Under the pieces are notes generated by a model that did no database searches, was not told where the DNA came from, and saw only the letters and a list, made by a program, of their open reading frames with translations. Positions 708 to 15,723 of a DNA stretch of 64,000 nt are shown here, piece after piece. Origin of the DNA: Bdellovibrio bacteriovorus str. Tiberius (GTDB lineage: Bacteria > Bdellovibrionota > Bdellovibrionia > Bdellovibrionales > Bdellovibrionaceae); the NCBI RefSeq assembly GCF_000317895.1, contig NC_019567.1:1116001-1180000 (forward strand), read 5' to 3'. Both the position numbers and the translations under genes were made by a program. Each line of letters opens with the position of its first letter. Within the stretch, counting starts at the first letter, position 1.

Positions 708-1793
708 TTAAGGATTGGGAGTCTTCAAGTCGCACAGGGCAAGGCGAATTCCCCCACCGTAGTTGGTTTTATATGCTGGGGGTTCTAACGCTACAGACTT
801 TTCTGCAGCGGCATATGATTGGTTTAAGGCAGATAGTTTGGCTGTAGTTAGATCTCCGTAAAAGAAGGAAAGATTAAGGCCAATGGCTTGTTGTGAAACA
901 CGAAGATGGATGTACCTCGAGCCCATCATTGTCGAGTCAGCAAGTCCACCTCCATAGGTCTGGGGGCCGAAGATACTGCCTCCTACATTCCAGACAGCTG
1001 CTAGACTGTTGCTGCTGTTAAATGTCCGGCTTAAAACACATGTGCAAGTGTTTATAGTCTTACTTCCACACCCGTCAAAACCATGTTGCGTGATGCTGAA
1101 ACCTATTAGCTTTAGATCGGGGGCTTTCAAGCCCAAGGCGATGACTTGCGGGTCTTCTTCGATATTTATCGTGCAAGTGTTTTCTGAATTGTTACCCGCA
1201 TGGCAAAAGATCGGGATATTGACGATACCTTCTTGCATGGTGCCTACCGCAGTCGGCATACAGTTCAATATTTTTGCAGCAGAGGGACTGCTTATATCGG
1301 CCAGGATTGTTGTGGAAATTGAAAGAGGCTTTAGAGGGCGTACGGTTTTGGTTTCGTCAAACTCGACAAGCCACTGTCCGCTCCAGTTTGAGTCGTGTCC
1401 TGAATCGATCTGAAGGCGGATGTTCTTCACGAATAAAGTGTTCGAATATCCAGAAGCTTGCTTGCCGACTTCAGCTGTCGTGGTTGTCCCAGCCGTGTTC
1501 GTGTAAAGCTTGGAAACAGTCATGTTCTGTGGATTGATTTTTGAGGCAATAGTGCTATTGAAGGTCTGAGGATTTGGGTTGTTCAAGACGTATTTGCAAA
1601 CCGATCCATCCGCCAAAGTAGATATTAGAAGCTTTTGAAGGTCCGCGGCGGCGAGCTGCTCGTTGAGGGCACGAGCCTCTTTGGATTGATGACTAAGAAC
1701 GCTAGCAACCGTTGCGGCCAGAAGGGCCGTTAGGCCTATCGAGACCAAGACTTGGATCAAAGAATTTCCGCGACTATTTAAGAAGTGTTTCAT
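708..1793 (-). CDS. Pilin-like (pseudopilin) protein with Gln at +5
   Basis: The N terminus MKHFLNSRGNSLIQVLVSIG is a short basic leader, a Gly, then a long hydrophobic helix to about residue 32, followed by a polar globular part rich in Cys and Thr. This is the layout of type IV pilins and type II secretion pseudopilins cleaved by prepilin peptidase. Classical pilins carry Glu at mature position 5; here the aligned residue is Gln. I prefer ATG 1793 to the upstream ATG 1808 because the gene then starts with the usual short basic leader and is preceded by gagagga. At ~361 residues it is long for a major pilin and fits a minor pilin. A second protein of this type is at 32370-33356. Confidence 0.75.
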   Translation of the reverse strand: MKHFLNSRGNSLIQVLVSIGLTALLAATVASVLSHQSKEARALNEQLAAADLQKLLISTLADGSVCKYVLNNPNPQTFNSTIASKINPQNMTVSKLYTNTAGTTTTAEVGKQASGYSNTLFVKNIRLQIDSGHDSNWSGQWLVEFDETKTVRPLKPLSISTTILADISSPSAAKILNCMPTAVGTMQEGIVNIPIFCHAGNNSENTCTINIEEDPQVIALGLKAPDLKLIGFSITQHGFDGCGSKTINTCTCVLSRTFNSSNSLAAVWNVGGSIFGPQTYGGGLADSTMMGSRYIHLRVSQQAIGLNLSFFYGDLTTAKLSALNQSYAAAEKSVALEPPAYKTNYGGGIRLALCDLKTPNP

Positions 1794-2023
1794 TTTGTAT
1801 CCTCTCATTTCGTGCGGTAACGATTGACGTCATTTAGATCGACATCAGGGGCAAAAGACTAAATGAGGATTCCTGTAATCTTCCATGAATGGAACGGGTT
1901 GAAAGTAGATATTGTTTTGGCGGGTAGGCAGTGCAGATCGAGAAACAGATTTTTGCTCCACTGGGGTTCACAAAACGTGTCTATGGGCCGTGAATCGTCA
2001 TACGATATTTGTATGAGGTAGAA

Positions 2024-2444: not shown

Positions 2445-2466
2445 TTGATGATGCTGTGAGGTGCTT

Positions 2467-4299
2467 ATGAAAAAGTCAGAAATACTGTTAGCTTTGGCAT
2501 TCGTCACTATGACCCCTTTCGCTATGGCGCAGGAGGAGTCGTCATATGAAGAGCGAATGGATAAAGAATATGATGAAAGGTATGCCCGCACCCAAGAGAC
2601 AAGGAATGTTGTTTCTGAAGAAAGAGTTCAAAATTTTGATGCCTACTTCTATTACAGCACAAAAGCAAATGGGCAGAATTTGGATATATCTGCTTATAGC
2701 ATTCCGGATAAATTTGGCAGCCAAAAAGAACAATATGCTCAAGCGCTAAATCTATTTCAGGCAGCTTTGGGTATGGATAGTGCGAGGTATTCTAAGGCGA
2801 CTTCTTATGCCGAAAGCTTACAGCTATTAAAGCGCGAATCATTGGTCCTGAGCCGTGACCAGAAGCTGTTGTTTTTGTCCCTTTCGGGGTCATATATGTC
2901 CCAATTCTATTCAGAATCAGTAAAGAATAGAGGTGGCCCGGAAGAGCTCTTTAGTAATGCTCTTGAAAGTGGTACCCAAGGCGGAATATGTGGCGATATC
3001 CACCAGTTCTTAGCCGGTCAAGCGCAAGCACTGGGCTTCAAGGACATTGGTATGCATACTGGATTGTGGCAGAAAGATAAAGCTGGCAAGGATTCCGGCG
3101 GCCATTTTGTCTATCATTTCAAAGACCCGGCAACGGGCCTTTATTACATCCAAAATTATTCTCAGATCATTGCGACAGGCCAGAAGACGCAGCAAGGAAT
3201 GCTGGAGGTAAGCAGTCGAATTCTCGGACCTTTGAGCGGAGTCGTTTATTCACAGGGAGTCAGTGGCAACTATCACTACTATTTACCGAAAACGGCGGCC
3301 TGGATCAAAAATGGACTGAGCGCCTTGGCATATAAGGATGTCAAGGGGTCAGTATTGAGGATGCAAGTGGGACCTCAAGAAAAGTCCGTACAAATTCAAA
3401 CGGTAGCAGAACTTCAAGGTTCATATGTCCGAGCTTTTGCTTTACATCAGCAATTTAATGCAAACGAAGGCAATTACAGATTCTCTGCTGTCGGCGTATC
3501 TGGCCAGGTCGGAGGGAACTTTGTTGTCAAATCCGTTGTTGATGAAGTCGGACTGTTCATCAATGGCTATGGTGGCATCGGTCAGGTGGGATCACCGGCT
3601 TTGGATTCTATCGCAAATTGGGATGAGAAAAGAAGAACGGTTCTATTTCATCAATTAAAGTTTAAAGGAACCGCGCGCATTAATAATACGACCGGACGAG
3701 TTGAGCTTGAGCGCACAAATCTTGATACCAGTCTGATCGGCATGAAAAGAGGAAGCCGTGCAGATATAGTTGCAAAGTTTGGGATCGAACAAGTTTTAAC
3801 TTCGGGGTTTACAGTTGACTATGAAAGAACTGTACGACGAGTCAAGGATGGTTACGGATCTACTCAGACCAAATGGGCTACAGAGGCAGATAAGGTCTCT
3901 GTCGTATTCGATAAACAGGCTGGAAAAGTATATCTAGTTGTTCGCGGCGAGCTTTTCCTATTCGAGGGCGTAGAAAACATGTCTGCGACGGCCGTCAAAA
4001 ATTCCATTGAAGCCAGCGTTCCAGTGGGTCATCTAGGTCAAGTATATGTGAAATACGATTTGGCCAAGATGGTTAAGAATCAGTCTAACGACCCATTTTA
4101 TGATCTTCCCGCGTCGCAGGAGTTTCGTTTAGGAATTAAGAGGGACTTCGCAAAACTGGTCCAATCTGGTGTCGAAGTCAGCTATGCGAAAGGATACAGA
4201 GCGTACCCTTTGCATGAAGATGCCTTTACTCCAGAATTGCAAAGTGAAAACGTCAAGGGCAGGTGGCAAGGAAATATTTGGGTCAGCCTGCGTTGGTAG
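2467..4299 (+). CDS. Exported transglutaminase-like protein with C-terminal beta-barrel-like region
   Basis: ATG 2467 follows GAGGTGCTT; the first ~22 residues are a signal peptide ending AMAQ. Around residue 175 the motif GGICGDIHQFLAGQAQALGF resembles the nucleophile block of transglutaminase/papain-like enzymes (Cys followed by a helix). About 38 residues later comes GGHFVYHFKDPATGLYYI, giving a His and then an Asp as in a Cys-His-Asp triad. The C-terminal half has alternating hydrophobic and polar strands and ends in an aromatic residue (WVSLRW), which fits an outer-membrane barrel. A protein-crosslinking or amidase/protease-like enzyme displayed at the outer membrane is therefore plausible; barrel and activity are inferred. 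A sigma-54-type promoter and tandem motif lie just upstream. Confidence 0.7.
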   Translation: MKKSEILLALAFVTMTPFAMAQEESSYEERMDKEYDERYARTQETRNVVSEERVQNFDAYFYYSTKANGQNLDISAYSIPDKFGSQKEQYAQALNLFQAALGMDSARYSKATSYAESLQLLKRESLVLSRDQKLLFLSLSGSYMSQFYSESVKNRGGPEELFSNALESGTQGGICGDIHQFLAGQAQALGFKDIGMHTGLWQKDKAGKDSGGHFVYHFKDPATGLYYIQNYSQIIATGQKTQQGMLEVSSRILGPLSGVVYSQGVSGNYHYYLPKTAAWIKNGLSALAYKDVKGSVLRMQVGPQEKSVQIQTVAELQGSYVRAFALHQQFNANEGNYRFSAVGVSGQVGGNFVVKSVVDEVGLFINGYGGIGQVGSPALDSIANWDEKRRTVLFHQLKFKGTARINNTTGRVELERTNLDTSLIGMKRGSRADIVAKFGIEQVLTSGFTVDYERTVRRVKDGYGSTQTKWATEADKVSVVFDKQAGKVYLVVRGELFLFEGVENMSATAVKNSIEASVPVGHLGQVYVKYDLAKMVKNQSNDPFYDLPASQEFRLGIKRDFAKLVQSGVEVSYAKGYRAYPLHEDAFTPELQSENVKGRWQGNIWVSLRW

Positions 4300-5917: not shown

Positions 5918-6919
5918 TTACTGAATGCATTTAAGATTTAATAAACGCACTTGATCCGCTGCTGAGCAGTCAATGCAAGTACCCGCTTCCGTTCCTGATT
6001 GATGAAGAGCCTTCTCGGGATCAATTTCCAATAAGGAATAGCTATCAGCATCCTTATTAAATTTTAACGCGTAAATGTGCCCATCGGATCCGAAGTGAGG
6101 ATAATAGACCATGTCACTTCCGAACGAAATCTTATTTAAGGACTTAGTTTTTAAGTCCAAGATAAAAATAGATTGTTGAATAGATAGAACGTTTGCTCCT
6201 GTGCCTTTCTGTGTACTATTTGCGTGAAAGGCCGTATATTTTCCGTCATAACTAAAATCCATTTTTCCGGCCATCATATTAAGTTCATAATTTTTCGTGC
6301 ATGTTCCATCGTTAGCAAGGTTATAAATCACGCTGCTTTCAGACTTTACATTCCAACCTGCAATCTTAGTTCCATCTTTCGAAAGCATAGGAAGTTTTAG
6401 ATCGATATTTTCACAAAACTTTTTGACTGGCGAGGCTGGCTTCACGGCCTCGCCAGAGATTTCGTAATCTCTCATAAATCCGTAGTAGGTGATAACTCGC
6501 ACCTTTGATTTCTTGGCATCTTTCAGTTTTTCAATAAATCCCAAAGATTGATAATAGCCAGACATTTCAGAATCGATATAAGAAGGTTTGCTGTCATTTT
6601 GGTTTACATAGTCAGAGGACTTATAGAAACACATCGATCTGTCATTTCCACAGTGAGGAATCGTCACGAGATTTGCACCAACAATAGGGTAAGGTTCCCA
6701 AGTGCGGCCTTTCGTCAGACACTTGCCGGTTTCTAATGAAAGAGTGCAATCCCCGCTCATATAAATTTTCTTTTGTGTTGTATCTACTCGTATGAAATAG
6801 GTCGGCTTAACCTCAAGAGGAACTTCACGCACAAGTCCCTTAACCTGATTACGGCAAGAGTCTTCCGCAAATGCAGAAGCGGCCATGATTAAAAGCAGCG
6901 CAATAATTAATAGCCTCAT
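5918..6919 (-). CDS. Exported beta-propeller-like protein
   Basis: A 333-residue protein with a signal peptide (MRLLIIALLLIMAASAFAED). The second half has repeated segments such as DGTKIAGWNV, SYDGKYTAFHA and HFGSDGHIYALKF, resembling the WD40-like/TolB-type propeller blade (D-G-x-x-I/Y-A). Several Cys are spread over the chain. Its ATG overlaps the stop of the upstream thioredoxin-like gene by 4 nt, so the pair is translationally coupled and probably acts together in the periplasm. No precise function can be assigned. Confidence 0.7.
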   Translation of the reverse strand: MRLLIIALLLIMAASAFAEDSCRNQVKGLVREVPLEVKPTYFIRVDTTQKKIYMSGDCTLSLETGKCLTKGRTWEPYPIVGANLVTIPHCGNDRSMCFYKSSDYVNQNDSKPSYIDSEMSGYYQSLGFIEKLKDAKKSKVRVITYYGFMRDYEISGEAVKPASPVKKFCENIDLKLPMLSKDGTKIAGWNVKSESSVIYNLANDGTCTKNYELNMMAGKMDFSYDGKYTAFHANSTQKGTGANVLSIQQSIFILDLKTKSLNKISFGSDMVYYPHFGSDGHIYALKFNKDADSYSLLEIDPEKALHQSGTEAGTCIDCSAADQVRLLNLKCIQ

Positions 6920-7754: not shown

Positions 7755-7858
7755 GATTTGTCATTAGGTTCCTTCTTAAAGGTCCGCCTGGCATATAAAG
7801 GCAGGCGGCGATAGTACATCCTTAAAGTATGTTTAGTGTCAAAATAGGGATGCATTGT

Positions 7859-9700
7859 ATGAAGCGTATTGCGATCTTGGTTCCCCTTTTCTTTTCAGCC
7901 TGCGGCTTTAAAATGGACCTTTTTCAGAGTGAGCAAGGATCCGCATCCGGGAGCGAATGTCAGGAAGATCTGTTGAACTCAGATCGATGTCGTGTGGGTG
8001 CAGAAAAATATGTGGCGTCGTCCTTGGGCAGCAATGTGTTGGGGCCGAATGGTCAGCTTAGTGTGCCTATTCCTCAGGGGTATTATGATGGAAGCTCTTC
8101 CGTCGCCATAAGCGATTCTAACCTGGATTCGCAAAATATTAAGAAAGACATTTCAATATTGGGGATAGTTGGCAGTCTTGAGGATCGCTATCCCTCGTGT
8201 TCCGATGACGCTTTGAATGCGGTGAAGTGTTCAACAGGGGGTGCGCGCTATGTCTATGACGGTGCCTTTGGCGGTCGGTCTGTGGCTTGCAGTAGTGGGG
8301 CAAATGCAGTGGCTTGTTGGGCCGGTGCCAATCAGTTCGTAACTTCTACAGCGGGAGCTGACGTCGTTGGCAGCAATGGGGCCTTGGTTGTTTCATTGCC
8401 TAATGGGTACTATGAGGCAAAAACTTGCAGTATCGCGGACTTGAATTTAACGGCAGGGAACGTACGGCAAGGGGTGCAGATATTCGGCGTGAATGGAAGC
8501 TATGTGGGGTCATTCGGTGCAGGTATAGCATCCCAGGCTCATCGCGACGTCAGCAGCAACCAAATTACAATGGAATCTGAAGTTAGCACCTATGCAGGAG
8601 CAGAGCTGCCAAGTGGGGGTGGTTTTGAGTACCGGGCTATCCCAGATGTTTTAAAGGATGATGACGGTTCTGACGGTTTAAGTTGTAACTATGCGCCACG
8701 GCCAAGCACGACTTGTGGCACTTCACAGGCGACCATCGCGTTGAGAATTGCGGATTGTGCTTCAAAAAATGCCGCTACAGCCAGTTGGGATGGTGCGACT
8801 CAGTGTAATGGTGGCCAAGGTTTATGGAGGCTCGTAACTCGGGCAGGGGCCAATAAAGAAGTGTGGCAAGATCAACGAACGGGTTTGGTCTGGAGTTCGA
8901 TAGTGTCTAGTACCGGTAGTACCTGGTGTATGTCATCTGGTAATACCCAGCATGCCCCAGTTTATTTTGCAGAATCCTATCACGGTGCTTCCGGGACACC
9001 GATGGAAGGAAATGGCGCGATAGGTTCATTCGGCGGGGGAAGTTCTTCGCAACAAGAGACGATTACAGTTACATTTACAAGTGCCACGACTTATACGGTG
9101 ACAGGGAGCAGTGGCGCCAGTGGCTGTCAGGCCGGATCGGCTGCCGGTGGGCTGACTGGGGTGGCAGGATCGACATCGACTTGGTCGCGTACGAACTATT
9201 GCAGTTTTACTCTGCGGCAAGGCAGTACTAATTTTACGGCTGGAGATACTTTTATAATTTCGAGTGCTTCGTCGACAGACACATGTTTTCCAGGAAGTGC
9301 GAACCAACCTGCAGCGAAATACAGTGTTTGTTATGAGGGCGCTGGGCTTAGCGCAGTTCCCGGAGAAAATTGGGGGACTGGAGTTTATCTGGACTCTAAA
9401 GGATATATGGGAAAGTCTACGGCTTTGAGTATTCACTGGCGTTTGCCAACATTGGCGGATTATCAGCTTGCTGAAGTGGATGGGGTCAGATTCGTAATGC
9501 CTGATATGGGACTCCCAGGTGGGGAGCGTCCGACTCGAGATGGATCGCCGGGGGGGAATAATACCCATCTGGAGTGGACAGCAACAGTCGACGCTGGCGG
9601 TTTAAATCGTCGTAGTTCTCTATTGTTTGATTCGGTGAGCGGCTTGGGCTATGGGAAGCGTAGGAGCCTTACTGGCGGAGTTCGATGCGTGGGTAGGTAG
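7859..9700 (+). CDS. Lcl/DUF1566-type repeat lipoprotein
   Basis: The start ATG 7859 gives a lipoprotein signal with lipobox FSAC (Cys about residue 16). Residues ~30-220 hold degenerate ~75-residue repeats with the pattern C-S-D-D...N...C, A-x-Y-V, P-x-G-Y-Y-D/E-G, D-x-N-L and I-F-G-V-x-G. The C-terminal ~350 residues contain VWQDQRTGLVWSS, WRLPTLADYQLAE and a final VRCVGR, the hallmarks of the Lcl C-terminal/DUF1566 domain found in surface-exposed lipoproteins. It is convergent with a paralogue at 9706-11583. Surface attachment or adhesion is a common guess for such proteins, not proven here. Confidence 0.8.
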   Translation: MKRIAILVPLFFSACGFKMDLFQSEQGSASGSECQEDLLNSDRCRVGAEKYVASSLGSNVLGPNGQLSVPIPQGYYDGSSSVAISDSNLDSQNIKKDISILGIVGSLEDRYPSCSDDALNAVKCSTGGARYVYDGAFGGRSVACSSGANAVACWAGANQFVTSTAGADVVGSNGALVVSLPNGYYEAKTCSIADLNLTAGNVRQGVQIFGVNGSYVGSFGAGIASQAHRDVSSNQITMESEVSTYAGAELPSGGGFEYRAIPDVLKDDDGSDGLSCNYAPRPSTTCGTSQATIALRIADCASKNAATASWDGATQCNGGQGLWRLVTRAGANKEVWQDQRTGLVWSSIVSSTGSTWCMSSGNTQHAPVYFAESYHGASGTPMEGNGAIGSFGGGSSSQQETITVTFTSATTYTVTGSSGASGCQAGSAAGGLTGVAGSTSTWSRTNYCSFTLRQGSTNFTAGDTFIISSASSTDTCFPGSANQPAAKYSVCYEGAGLSAVPGENWGTGVYLDSKGYMGKSTALSIHWRLPTLADYQLAEVDGVRFVMPDMGLPGGERPTRDGSPGGNNTHLEWTATVDAGGLNRRSSLLFDSVSGLGYGKRRSLTGGVRCVGR

Positions 9701-9705
9701 GCACT

Positions 9706-11583
9706 CTATCTGCCCACACATCGCGCGAAAATACTAAAATTGGTGTGATTCAGTTGGGGACTCGCAGTTGAGTTAGGAAGGGTGAATGTCCAGTATCCAC
9801 TTCGGTCGTATCGTTGGCTCGCGGCAGGGAATAAGATATTTGAGGTGACCGTTGAGGTCATCTCATAATATGAGATGGACGGTAACACGAAATTGGCGCC
9901 ATTGTTGGCTGCTAAACGATAGTCATTCAGCGTTGGCAGACGCCAAAATATAGACGGGACAGAGTTTTTGCCCATTCGGCCTTTTTCAGGCAAATAAGTG
10001 CCCATAGACCAATCCTCGCCAGCGACCCCAGACAGTCCTGTTGCTTCAGCACAAAGGCTTAATGGTGAGCTGGGTTGTAGGCCAGAGATTGAACCAGGCA
10101 GGCAGGATGCGGTTGTAGCCTCAGTACTTCTTAGCATCATCGTGTCACCTGAGGCAAATGGCGTAGAGCCTTGTGTGATGGTAAAGCTACAATAACCACT
10201 CCGTCCCCATGTCGTCGATGATCCGGGGACTGCGGTTAAGGTACCGCTGGTGATGGCTCCGGCTTGGCAGCCCGTCCCCCCAGCGTCGCTAGTGACTGAA
10301 AAATGGGTTGAGTCTGAAAAGGCCACTGTGACCCATTCATTCTGAGATGATTCACCACCGCTCATTGCGCTAATGGTGCCATTTCCGATAATCGGTACGG
10401 TCGATGTTCCATTATAACTAAGAGATCGATAGAATGGAGCCTCTTGACGGTTTCCAGAGGCCGTACACCAACTCGAAGGTGTCAGTGGGGATCCCCAGAT
10501 AAGTTGGGTTCTTTCGTCTTGCCATACTTCCTGGCTGGGGCCAGCCCTGGTAACGAGCTTCCAGGTTCCTTGTCCGCCATTGCACTGGACAGCGCCATCC
10601 CATAAAGACTCGGTGGGGTTTTTTGCTGCGCAGTCTGCAATTCTTAGTGCTATGGAGTTCTGGGATGTGCCGCAGTTTATGCTGGGCCGATTCGCCATTT
10701 TGCAATTTACACCATCTGCACCGTTGTCATCTAAGTGGACATTCGGAACTTCACGATAGGCTAATCCGGCAGACGACGGAAGGTCGGAATTCACATAAGT
10801 TGTCATTTCGCTTTTATGACTTATTTGTGCCGATGTGCCTGGCGATTCAAGATTGGGTTGAACCACCGTACCGGGACTTCTATGCGCGCCGGAAGCAATC
10901 GTTGCTTGAAAGTCTCCAGCATAGTTGCCCGTAGTTCCAAAAATACTGACGCCACTTCGAATATTGCTTGAGACGAGATCTGCGTCGCTCATGGTGCAGA
11001 CTTTTCCGTCATAGTAGCCATCGGGAATGGTGCTGGAAATTGCTCCAGCGACAGCATTGATGTTATTTCCACTTGTCGCTGTAACGTATTGATTCAGACT
11101 ATTAGTCCAGCAGGCCAAAGTGTTTTGCCCCGGCGTGCATGTCGAAGAGCGGCCACCAAATTCGGAGTTGTACACGTACCGATTTAAAGCAGTTGTACAG
11201 GCTGTCGCATTTAAAAGATTGTCTCCGCAAGCTGAAAATGCGGCATCAAAGGTGCCAGATACACCGAAGAGGGTTACACCGTTCTTAATGTTTGAAGACT
11301 GAAGATCAGGTGCTATACCAGTGAATTGGCTGTTTCCATCGTAAAATCCCATGGGCACAGGTACTGTCGCTGTAGTTCCAGTCAAATCTGTACCAAGTGT
11401 TTCGGTAACATAAGATGAACCTGTGGTAAGGCATTCTGTGTGGTTTAAATCGTTGTTTGTGCAAGACGGAAGATTTAGATTTGCCGAATCAGTCTTGCTG
11501 TCCTTACTAACGTTGGCCTTGGTACAGCCCGTAAGCACAGTCAGTAGTATTGTTAGAATGGTTGCAAGGCTATCGTGTTTCAC
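9706..11583 (-). CDS. Lcl/DUF1566-type repeat lipoprotein (paralogue)
   Basis: Same architecture as the 7859 gene: lipobox LTGC, degenerate CTNNDLN...C / P-x-G-F/Y-Y-D-G / I-F-G-x-x-G repeats, then VWQDERTQLIWGS, WRLPTLNDYRLAA and a terminal ARCVGR. The start is a GTG at 11583 with a weak ribosome site; no better start is visible. It faces its paralogue tail to tail with only 5 bp between stops. Because both genes end with codons for RCVGR, their 3' ends form an imperfect inverted repeat (about 9681-9725) that may terminate both transcripts. A TGTTTC/GAAACA dyad lies 64 bp upstream. Confidence 0.8.
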   Translation of the reverse strand: MKHDSLATILTILLTVLTGCTKANVSKDSKTDSANLNLPSCTNNDLNHTECLTTGSSYVTETLGTDLTGTTATVPVPMGFYDGNSQFTGIAPDLQSSNIKNGVTLFGVSGTFDAAFSACGDNLLNATACTTALNRYVYNSEFGGRSSTCTPGQNTLACWTNSLNQYVTATSGNNINAVAGAISSTIPDGYYDGKVCTMSDADLVSSNIRSGVSIFGTTGNYAGDFQATIASGAHRSPGTVVQPNLESPGTSAQISHKSEMTTYVNSDLPSSAGLAYREVPNVHLDDNGADGVNCKMANRPSINCGTSQNSIALRIADCAAKNPTESLWDGAVQCNGGQGTWKLVTRAGPSQEVWQDERTQLIWGSPLTPSSWCTASGNRQEAPFYRSLSYNGTSTVPIIGNGTISAMSGGESSQNEWVTVAFSDSTHFSVTSDAGGTGCQAGAITSGTLTAVPGSSTTWGRSGYCSFTITQGSTPFASGDTMMLRSTEATTASCLPGSISGLQPSSPLSLCAEATGLSGVAGEDWSMGTYLPEKGRMGKNSVPSIFWRLPTLNDYRLAANNGANFVLPSISYYEMTSTVTSNILFPAASQRYDRSGYWTFTLPNSTASPQLNHTNFSIFARCVGR

Positions 11584-11694: not shown

Positions 11695-12276
11695 TTAAAG
11701 CTCAAGCCAGATCTTCATATGGTCGCCGTAATCTTCTGTTCTTACTTGATAGTAAAGAGGCGCGGCATCGACGGTCTCGTCGTATAATACGCTATAAATG
11801 GCGCCGAGCTTTTCCGCATAGGCTCCTTTTTTTGAAGGCCTGATTTGGCTATATTCCAGAGCCTCAATGAGGTGACGATAATGAACATTGAGTTCTTGGT
11901 AGCTTGGGTGTTCTGTCTTTTCGAAATTTTCTATGGCAGACCGAACGTCCTGTTCGCCCCAGTTAGAATATTTGCTGCGAGCGGCTTGTTCGAGATGTCT
12001 TGCAAGGTTATCCATGCGTAAGTAGTGTTCAGCTATAAGTCTTGTCATTGTACTTTTTTTGGATTCTTCAATCTCATCGGCACGATTGCTCTGTTGTGTT
12101 GGTTGTGATGCTGGAGTGACCGCAGCTACAACCGATTCGAATTTAAGGCGTGTAGTACGCGGAAGTGAAATAGGTTTCGCAGTTGGCATGTTGTCGGTGT
12201 GATCTGAATCTTTCAGAAAGTAGATCAACCCCATTGAGATAGCGAGGCCTGAAAAAAGAAGGATGAATTTCTTCAT
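11695..12276 (-). CDS. Membrane-anchored or exported helical protein
   Basis: A 193-residue protein with an N-terminal hydrophobic segment (ILLFSGLAISMGLIYFL) followed at once by charged residues, so it may stay anchored. The rest is mostly alpha-helical and charged, ending YQVRTEDYGDHMKIWLEL. Its ATG overlaps the stop of the caspase-fold-like gene by 4 nt (ATGA), so the two are translationally coupled. It could be a partner, chaperone or inhibitor of that protein; this is inference from coupling alone. No family recognised. Confidence 0.6.
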   Translation of the reverse strand: MKKFILLFSGLAISMGLIYFLKDSDHTDNMPTAKPISLPRTTRLKFESVVAAVTPASQPTQQSNRADEIEESKKSTMTRLIAEHYLRMDNLARHLEQAARSKYSNWGEQDVRSAIENFEKTEHPSYQELNVHYRHLIEALEYSQIRPSKKGAYAEKLGAIYSVLYDETVDAAPLYYQVRTEDYGDHMKIWLEL

Positions 12277-13580
12277 TTTGTGATCCTTGAGAGGATTGTG
12301 ATATATTTGTTGCCGCCGGTGCCGGAAACGACTGCGGCATTGATGCCATCGCGGGCATACGACGACAGTTGAAAGCCGCCCAATGTCAGCTTTTTAGTTT
12401 CACATTTATTCTGAAATAGGACTTTTGCGCAACCGCGCGCTGTCAATGCGGGTATTGACACTCGTGACCGCGCTACAAATGTTCCGGCTGGAGTGGGCTG
12501 ATAGTTGACTGTATGGTTTCCTAAAAGGACCGATTCAGAAAGAGTTTTCCCTCGATAGTAATTTTCGAAAATAGTTCCATCCCTGTGCATGGGGGACCAG
12601 TTTATTGATGTGCCTCCGTACGTGATCGCATTGGGAAAAGCCCGAACCAAGGCGGTTGACATTGAAATGCTCTTTTGGTTTGCGGGAATAAGGCCATAGC
12701 AGGCGGCATTGAAGATTGTTCTGACTTTGGACCTTTGTGCGGCCGTCATGGTTTTCGAAACTTCGTTTAAGAAGTGTTCGCCGCTAAGAACACTTGAAAG
12801 TGACCGATTGACGAATATTCCGCCTTTGTAGCCATGAACGACCATCAAGATATCAACTGCGGCATGAAGAGAGGATACTCGCTTTATCGAGCCGATGAAT
12901 TGATTGTTTAGGTCGTGGTCACCTTGCACTAGATAAATACGTCCGTACTTTTCACCGTGGTCTATAATGAGCCGTTTGATAAAAGCCGCTACCAGATTAT
13001 TTTGTAAACGTCTTGCATAGGGGTGCAACTCTCCTGGGAAGACTTGGCTCATCGCTCGTTGAATTTCGGCTGCGCCATCGATGTCTCCTGATTCAACTAA
13101 CAAGATCAGGGCGCTGTCGTTTTTAGGGCTTAACTTTCTTTCAATATATTTTGTGACTCTGGCCTTGTGTTGTGCGATCGACGATGCCTTTGCACTATCA
13201 CTTAGTAGGTTAAAGGGTGTGGGGGTAGCGCAGCCTCTGCATTTTGGCGTCTGGGCTATAACCGATTCAATAGATACATCGGTACATCCCCCACGATTGC
13301 ATTTTTGAACGACGGCGGAGTTGAGATCTGGATATTTGCCGATTGTACCTGTGGAGACAAACGCGTCGCTGACACAAATGGATTTCGGATCAGAAGTGGG
13401 GGGAAGAGACATGGTTTGCGGAACTCGTCCGGTGTAGTAAGTATATTTCGGAAGATCATTTTCCCGGCAGAAGTCTTGCAGCTCATTACGAGGTTCTTCG
13501 TAAGAAACTTTTACTTCAATGCATCCAACCAGTGACAGGCACAACGTAAATAAGAATAAAAGGGCTGACAATCTGTTCAT
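12273..13580 (-). CDS. Lipoprotein with caspase/legumain-like (clan CD) signature
   Basis: The lipobox is LVGC (Cys20). After a Cys-rich N-terminal part there is VDILMVVHGYKGG (His249-Gly250) on a hydrophobic strand, and about 45 residues later KVRTIFNAACYGL (Cys294). A strand ending in H-G and a second ending in A-C-x-G is the His/Cys dyad layout of clan CD peptidases (caspases, legumains, gingipains, CHAT). Upstream, GRIYLVQGDHDLNNQF could be another core strand. The downstream gene is coupled by ATGA. Peptidase activity, if real, would be at the envelope surface. The fold assignment is mine from motif spacing and needs a structure prediction. Confidence 0.55.
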   Translation of the reverse strand: MNRLSALLFLFTLCLSLVGCIEVKVSYEEPRNELQDFCRENDLPKYTYYTGRVPQTMSLPPTSDPKSICVSDAFVSTGTIGKYPDLNSAVVQKCNRGGCTDVSIESVIAQTPKCRGCATPTPFNLLSDSAKASSIAQHKARVTKYIERKLSPKNDSALILLVESGDIDGAAEIQRAMSQVFPGELHPYARRLQNNLVAAFIKRLIIDHGEKYGRIYLVQGDHDLNNQFIGSIKRVSSLHAAVDILMVVHGYKGGIFVNRSLSSVLSGEHFLNEVSKTMTAAQRSKVRTIFNAACYGLIPANQKSISMSTALVRAFPNAITYGGTSINWSPMHRDGTIFENYYRGKTLSESVLLGNHTVNYQPTPAGTFVARSRVSIPALTARGCAKVLFQNKCETKKLTLGGFQLSSYARDGINAAVVSGTGGNKYITILSRITK

Positions 13581-14043: not shown

Positions 14044-14441
14044 TATCTTTGAATATAGTGCGCTAGCAGGGTGTCGGTATCGACAAAGCTGGCGTCTTTG
14101 AAAAGACATCGATCAAGTTTGTAAGTCTTGGTGGCCGCTTGGAAATCAAGAAGTTCGGGTTTCCCACCCAACTTGCGGCAAAGCTTAAAAGAAGGCTTAC
14201 CGGTGTCAGATAAAAATTGTTCAAAGGCGAATTTATTCTTCGAATGGAACGCCATACATTTTTTATGCTTACAATTTTCAGATAAAAAGACGGTTTTTTC
14301 TTTATTGTAGCAGTATTTTGAAGACTCTTTTATCGTGTTTCCAAATTCATTTTTAGAAATGATTCCCGATTGGCATGTTAAATCCTTGGCTGAAGATACG
14401 CTCAGAAAAAGAAAGAAGAGGCTATTTAATATAGCTGACAT
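14043..14441 (-). CDS. Small Cys-rich exported protein coupled to the protease
   Basis: A 132-residue protein with a signal peptide (MSAILNSLFFLFLSVSSAKD) and seven Cys residues. The C-terminal half, GKPSFKLCRKLGGKPELLDF then LDRCLFKDASFVDT, resembles the DUF333-type pattern G-x-P-x-x-x-C-x-x-x-G-G ... C-x-F, known from small secreted or periplasmic proteins. Its start lies inside the last codons of the papain-like protease gene (20-nt overlap), implying coupled translation. A protease-inhibitor or propeptide-like partner role is possible but not shown. Confidence 0.6.
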   Translation of the reverse strand: MSAILNSLFFLFLSVSSAKDLTCQSGIISKNEFGNTIKESSKYCYNKEKTVFLSENCKHKKCMAFHSKNKFAFEQFLSDTGKPSFKLCRKLGGKPELLDFQAATKTYKLDRCLFKDASFVDTDTLLAHYIQR

Positions 14442-15723
14442 TTCTTAGTCCTTTCGAAACAATTGATTTCGGAATCCAGATGTTGCCTTCCTCACATTTG
14501 TATCTTGTATCGTAGCTGTTGCAGCCGCGCCCCCAAGAGTTTCTGATAAGGTATTCACATTCACCACTTTTTCTATTGTACTTGCGACCTACGATGCTGC
14601 TGGCATGGCCTCCGGTAACAGGGGCGTTTGCATTGTATAGAATGCTGGCGTAGTACGAGATAGCTACGATATTCTTTCTATTCAGCTGTTCATCTAAGGC
14701 GGCAAACATCTCTGATTTATCGTTCTTTAAGGCGTCGCCCAATAAATGACTGCCTTTACGTTCGACTTCAATGCCTTTTAAGCTGATTCTTGGTTCACAG
14801 GCTTTATTGCTTAAAGAAGCAATAAAGCTGGCTCGGCTGCTTTCTTTCGCGATATCCATAAGCTCTTTGGTGTTGATCGTTGGGAAGATCTTTTGGGCGG
14901 AAGGGCAACGGATGGGGGTTAATTCTGCTGTGTCCCTTTTTAGTTTATCAAGTTGGATTAGGTTTTCCATGAGCGATGCCGGGCCATTATCTTCGCTGCG
15001 AAGGTTTTCTTCAAGGCAGGCGCCGCCTTTTTGTGCGGTTTTTTCAATAGTTACTTCTTGGCTATTTCTAGATGCTGCGCCCTCAAATTCGTGTTCTGCC
15101 CAGCCGACTTGTTTTAGAAGATTGTTGTCCCATTTGTCGTTGTAATTAAGGGCCAAATCAACGGCGGAAACTTTTTTGCCAAGACGGTATGTCAGGAGGT
15201 CGGCGGCTGCAAAGGCGTAGCACCACCCAATGCCATCTTGGTCCCTTACTGGTCCTAAAGTATCATTGCGTAGGTCAACTGCCTGACAGGTGTTTTCTTC
15301 GCGGTCGCGGGACTGTCTTCCTTGTTGTCGGTATGTGTCGTAGTATGAATTTGTCTTACTGGGGTCTAGCCCTAGTATCGTCGCATACTTTTTGTATTCA
15401 TTGAGCTCAGCTTCTACATCTTTGTACATCGATTCGTGCTCGATTTTATTTTGAAGTGTCGTCAGTTGTCCGTTATAGCCGGTGGTTTTCCAATAATCAA
15501 AGATACCGCGGCCCCAGCCGAACTTCGCGATATTGACATTGCATGTTCGGACCGTTTCCTGAATGTACTCGACCTCACGGGCGACGTCCGTCGTCTTAAA
15601 GACGGTCTTAATGTGGTCTGCGGTTGTCGAGATGTCACGAACAGCGTTCTTGCAATCAGGTTGTGCCCACAAGGTTGCGCAAAATAAAAGTGTACCTAGC
15701 AGGAAGGAAATGAACTGTATCAT
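14422..15723 (-). CDS. Exported papain-like (C1) cysteine protease
   Basis: A 433-residue protein with a signal peptide (cleavage near WAQ). Residues ~22-145 form a helical propeptide-like region. The catalytic domain begins with GPVRDQDGIGWCYAFAAADL, matching the papain block with oxyanion Gln162 and nucleophile Cys168. His373 lies in GGHASSIVGR and Asn395 in IRNSWGRG, completing the C-H-N triad. Extra Cys residues near the C terminus suggest disulfides. The layout argues for a secreted zymogen. It may share the divergent region 15724-15889, with its TGTTTC/GAAACA dyad, with the lipoprotein at 15890. High confidence in family; the substrate is unknown, though prey protein digestion would fit a predator. 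Confidence 0.85.
   Translation of the reverse strand: MIQFISFLLGTLLFCATLWAQPDCKNAVRDISTTADHIKTVFKTTDVAREVEYIQETVRTCNVNIAKFGWGRGIFDYWKTTGYNGQLTTLQNKIEHESMYKDVEAELNEYKKYATILGLDPSKTNSYYDTYRQQGRQSRDREENTCQAVDLRNDTLGPVRDQDGIGWCYAFAAADLLTYRLGKKVSAVDLALNYNDKWDNNLLKQVGWAEHEFEGAASRNSQEVTIEKTAQKGGACLEENLRSEDNGPASLMENLIQLDKLKRDTAELTPIRCPSAQKIFPTINTKELMDIAKESSRASFIASLSNKACEPRISLKGIEVERKGSHLLGDALKNDKSEMFAALDEQLNRKNIVAISYYASILYNANAPVTGGHASSIVGRKYNRKSGECEYLIRNSWGRGCNSYDTRYKCEEGNIWIPKSIVSKGLRNVSYIK

Follow-up and report, generated by a model that had tools for sequence, protein, structure and literature searches.

The LapG/BTLCP periplasmic proteases are an example of secreted cysteine enzymes of the transglutaminase-like kind in the envelope of Gram-negative bacteria, and LapG has LapD and LapA as partners. 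In type Va autotransporters and type Vd patatin-barrel proteins, a signal peptide, an N-terminal enzyme and a C-terminal barrel are joined in one chain. The protein family libraries we searched hold no family name for a fusion of a transglutaminase-like domain with a barrel, and no paper on such a fusion was found in the literature searched. Modules of both kinds are known, but their combination in a single chain, retained across a phylum, is undescribed in these sources. Here we analyse a gene of Bdellovibrio bacteriovorus str. Tiberius within a stretch of 64,000 nucleotides (contig NC_019567.1, positions 1,116,001 to 1,180,000), referred to below as the window. We consider it quite probable that a transglutaminase-like domain and a barrel are present together in its product.

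Features of the gene and its product (positions in the window)
Feature	Coordinates	Strand	Detail	Basis
Whole gene	2467..4299	+	610 aa; secreted transglutaminase-like / putative outer-membrane barrel protein	ORF; relatives
Shine-Dalgarno-like GAGG	2458..2461	+	5 bases before ATG	sequence
Signal peptide, residues 1-22	2467..2532	+	predicted cleavage between AMA and QEE	read from sequence; hydrophobic N-terminus in most relatives
Transglutaminase-like core, residues 110-262	2794..3252	+		profile-profile match; domain model pTM 0.71; fold matches
Cys175 codon (GGICGDIH), predicted nucleophile	2989..2991	+		34/34 conserved
His213 codon (GGH), predicted catalytic His	3103..3105	+		34/34 conserved
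Asp220 codon, third residue of the preliminary description; probably not catalytic	3124..3126	+		spacing; strand end
Asn230 codon (QNY), predicted third catalytic residue	3154..3156	+		N 30/34, D 4/34; spacing
Predicted outer-membrane beta-barrel, residues 291-610, about 14-16 strands	3337..4296	+		alternation z 4.5; structure matches
C-terminal strand with beta-signal pattern, residues 602-610 GNIWVSLRW	4270..4296	+		conserved G and alternating hydrophobic/aromatic end in relatives

The open reading frame begins with ATG, and its N-terminus, read by eye, resembles a signal peptide (MKKSEILLALAFVTMTPFAMA, followed by QEE), in agreement with the preliminary description of this DNA. The Pfam search with the window protein gave no hit at E 10, leaving the cut-offs of PF01841 and PF04473 unreached. 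Its single NCBIfam match was meaningless, and the PDB sequence search returned nothing meaningful. With nothing credible from Pfam and NCBIfam, the case was built via relatives.

A search of 60 related genomes gave, apart from the gene itself, ten matches: L003 is the closest at 53% identity, and the other nine are 33-39% identical. The alignment of the eleven sequences contains the near-invariant core motifs GGxCGDIH, LGF, GGH, HFxDP and YYxQNYxQ. Identity between members reaches 66% at residues 171-240, compared with 36-45% in the C-terminal half. When 291 genomes sampled from the phylum were scanned, a full-length profile hit 25 of them. A profile of the core domain hit 72, with most hits in open frames 600-740 codons long and several copies in some of the positive genomes. 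Distribution within the genus is patchy, with the family present in 9 of 24 genomes and absent from 15. Tiberius has one copy, and genome G020 has both a window-type copy and a paralogue. A single-protein pattern scan of the genome contigs and a profile scan of viral contigs yielded no relatives. One distant member (L029:412-2421) has a lipobox-like N-terminus (LLQGC) ahead of the same design.

We assign the N-terminal domain to the transglutaminase-like proteins with high confidence. The preliminary description had read this domain from the window sequence; the support comes instead from the relatives. The distant relative L098, which BLAST connects to the window protein (E 6e-5), passes PF04473 with 30.0 bits against a cut-off of 20.5. 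It is the only one among the members checked to do so, and several distant members match PF04473 or PF01841 below threshold. Comparison against the transglutaminase-like families thus gives no hit for the window protein itself, but a hit over the cut-off for its relative. In profile-profile comparison, the extended family scores 93.6-95% against independent transglutaminase-like proteins, with E 2e-7 or better. As L098 belongs to the family, it was taken out of the comparison set and the test was repeated, giving 93.6% and E 2e-7, with 0.1% for the reversed-profile control. The close family alone reaches only 20%, being too narrow.

The structure model of the N-terminal domain (residues 56-292) was built from three sequences, which limits its quality. 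It has a pTM of 0.71, with the helix and strands in the order expected of a transglutaminase-like core. About 30 of the 50 structure matches listed belong to the transglutaminase/NAT/LapG superfamily, though only at Z 3.5-5.4. They comprise transglutaminases, arylamine N-acetyltransferases and their amide-synthase kin, LapG (Z 4.2) and CPR-C4 proteases. The match ranked first (Z 6.9) is to a chain from a flagellar central pair that could not be assigned. Foldseek alone returned nothing significant for this domain, with no E under 0.3.

The classical triad of the transglutaminase-like superfamily is Cys-His-Asn/Asp (PMC4866520), and the family has the Cys-His-Asp/Asn order and spacing of that superfamily. 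The preliminary description had proposed a triad of residues 175, 213 and 220. Cys175 and His213 stand, as both are invariant in the 34 family members. Our results indicate that the third catalytic residue is very probably Asn230 and not Asp220. Seven residues separate His213 from Asp220, and 17-18 separate it from the position of Asn230; among Transglut_core proteins from this phylum, 19 of 21 have a His-Asp gap of 15-17 residues. In the predicted structure Asp220 ends the strand that bears His213 (residues 212-219), while Asn230 is on the returning strand (226-230), so that Asn230, and not Asp220, should lie beside His213. Position 230 is Asn or Asp in 34 of 34 members, the exchange expected for a third-residue role. 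Spacing and the predicted strand speak against Asp220, although a forced global profile alignment sets the D220-P221 position, not N230, opposite the transglutaminase Asp-Pro.

The C-terminal half is likely an outer-membrane barrel. In residues 291-610 the fraction of polar/apolar alternation is 0.41, compared with 0.21 in shuffled columns, and the N-terminal half has no such alternation (z -0.8). In each of the 30 members whose C-terminus could be analysed, 341-411 residues follow the active site and alternation lies above shuffles (mean z 2.6). The strand-rich C-terminus ending WVSLRW, noticed in the preliminary description, is present, and its last strand fits a beta-signal that is kept in close relatives (QGMIYLHAKF in the paralogues). 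The best structure matches of the full-length model are CymA, BrkA, EspP, OmpG and NalP at Z 11-12 (CymA and BrkA 12.2), in a model whose confidence is low (mean pLDDT 45.8) and which is also limited by only three input sequences. The plain Foldseek list is rich in outer-membrane proteins, without significant E-values. The earlier proposal of a fusion to a barrel therefore finds support in the alternation, the beta-signal and the structure matches, but the pLDDT of the barrel model is low. Structure prediction, suggested there as a check, gave a domain model with superfamily matches at low Z, and barrel matches at high Z in a model of low pLDDT.

The window copy sits among different genes from its paralogue, in a stretch of about 40-47% GC, and we found no functional neighbourhood for it; most of its neighbours have no assignment. 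In six Bdellovibrio genomes a gap of 30-37 bp separates the paralogue from a SpoIID-domain gene ahead of it, within a conserved block of SpoIID, SPFH, NfeD, MFS and XerC-like integrase genes. Tiberius keeps the whole SpoIID-SPFH-NfeD block (L060, G000:C1:2353000-2370000), but the slot of the paralogue is empty, and a search for a remnant there found none. The SpoIID operon was consequently set aside as evidence for the window copy and serves as a hint only. The neighbour of the window copy at 5918-6919 occurs in 2 of 24 genus genomes. Given this and its other company, the window copy behaves as an accessory gene.

Other genes of the window include a second cysteine-peptidase-like gene about 10 kb from the transglutaminase-like gene (14422-15723, minus strand). 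It encodes a secreted papain-family protein (Peptidase_C1 PF00112, 25.1 bits) with the motifs GWCYAFA and NSWG. The lipoprotein encoded at 12273-13580 (minus strand) contains VVHGYKGG and FNAACYG, which resemble the His-Gly and Cys of caspase-like (clan CD) peptidases; Pfam gives no support for such a peptidase. Two lipoprotein-like genes, 7829-9700 (plus strand) and 9706-11583 (minus strand), are convergent, tail-to-tail and 5 bp apart. Their products are 47% identical, and the pair looks like an inverted gene duplication. A 366-aa protein with a prepilin-like N-terminus (GNSLIQVLVSIGLTALLAA) and no credible Pfam match is encoded at 708-1808 (minus strand).

We favour, with somewhat better than even confidence, a secreted transglutaminase-like cysteine enzyme that its own C-terminal barrel anchors at the outer membrane. 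The protein would be exported by Sec and its barrel inserted through the C-terminal beta-signal. The predicted Cys175-His213-Asn230 triad would then attack an amide bond, as a peptidase, amidase or isopeptidase. The catalytic domain would most likely lie on the periplasmic face, since barrels that carry an N-terminal domain normally have it in the periplasm. The lipobox-like N-terminus of L029 hints at the same side. The Asn-type triad leans to hydrolysis over cross-linking. A hydrolase facing the periplasm is a tentative assignment, which we hold at slightly below even confidence. For the linking or cutting of self or prey proteins at the outer surface, suggested in the preliminary description, we found no evidence. 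A core role in predation appears weakened by the patchy presence in the genus.

The main rival is surface display in the manner of an autotransporter, in which the barrel helps to bring the N-terminal domain to the surface, where it would cut or modify prey or environmental proteins. The order of an N-terminal passenger and a C-terminal barrel fits this reading, as do the translocators BrkA, EspP and NalP among the best structure matches. A helix predicted at residues 276-288, immediately ahead of strand 1, could resemble the autotransporter linker. However, Pfam gives no autotransporter family hit, 14-strand porins score equally, more than 12 strands are predicted, and the LLQGC of the related L029 would fix its N-terminus at the periplasmic leaflet. 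We regard this arrangement as unlikely, though the least so of the alternatives. It is also doubtful, and considerably so, that the strand-rich region is soluble, a beta domain with no membrane barrel. The low pLDDT of this half would fit such a domain, as would the distant members L035 and L038, in which basic tails replace the aromatic last strand. Alternation far over shuffles, the terminal beta-signal and outer-membrane barrels as top structure matches argue against it.

Rather unlikely, slightly more so than surface display, is a cell-wall enzyme whose domain would act near the outer membrane, cutting or modifying wall-linked proteins or the peptides of peptidoglycan. SpoIID proteins act on peptidoglycan, and in six genus relatives the paralogue directly follows such a gene, behind SPFH and NfeD. 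This argument is one of neighbourhood, and the window copy lies elsewhere in a genome whose SpoIID site is empty, beside different genes. Least probable of all is a true transglutaminase, a protein cross-linker that would stiffen the envelope or the prey-derived bdelloplast. The superfamily and catalytic order are shared, and TglA of S. pyogenes is among the structure matches, though weakly (Z 5.4), but the third position is Asn, not Asp, in most members, and 15 of the 24 genus genomes do without the family. With 72 of 291 phylum genomes positive, some in multiple copies, the family would constitute a recurrent envelope tool in a group that includes bacterial predators. The named residues allow a direct test of envelope or prey protein processing from an outer-membrane anchor.

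The known systems each resemble a part of this design. The porin-type barrels CymA and OmpG are among the best structure matches for residues 291-610, but they have no enzyme domain and share no sequence similarity with the window protein (4-8% identity). The DUF553 'transglutaminase-like domain' (PF04473) and Transglut_core (PF01841) have the same Cys...His...Asp/Asn order and spacing, with the Cys at a helix start, and L098 links the former to the family. Unlike them, the window protein stays under all cut-offs, has Asn as its third residue, carries the family's own motifs GGxCGDIH and YYxQNYxQ, and continues into a barrel. LapG appears among the structure matches of the N-terminal domain, but it has no barrel, and the window protein has no Pfam hit to LapG or BTLCP. 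Type Va translocators match the predicted barrel at Z 11-12, a comparison made with the low-confidence model. The window protein differs from types Va and Vd in having no autotransporter or Omp85 family hit, in its more than 12 predicted strands and in a catalytic domain from a different superfamily. We see about an even chance that these proteins form a phylum-wide, undescribed class of barrels, each with its own transglutaminase-like cysteine enzyme. Such a class would serve Bdellovibrionota and their relatives as an envelope protease or cross-linker that supplies its own anchor, and it would be separate from both the autotransporters and the LapG system.
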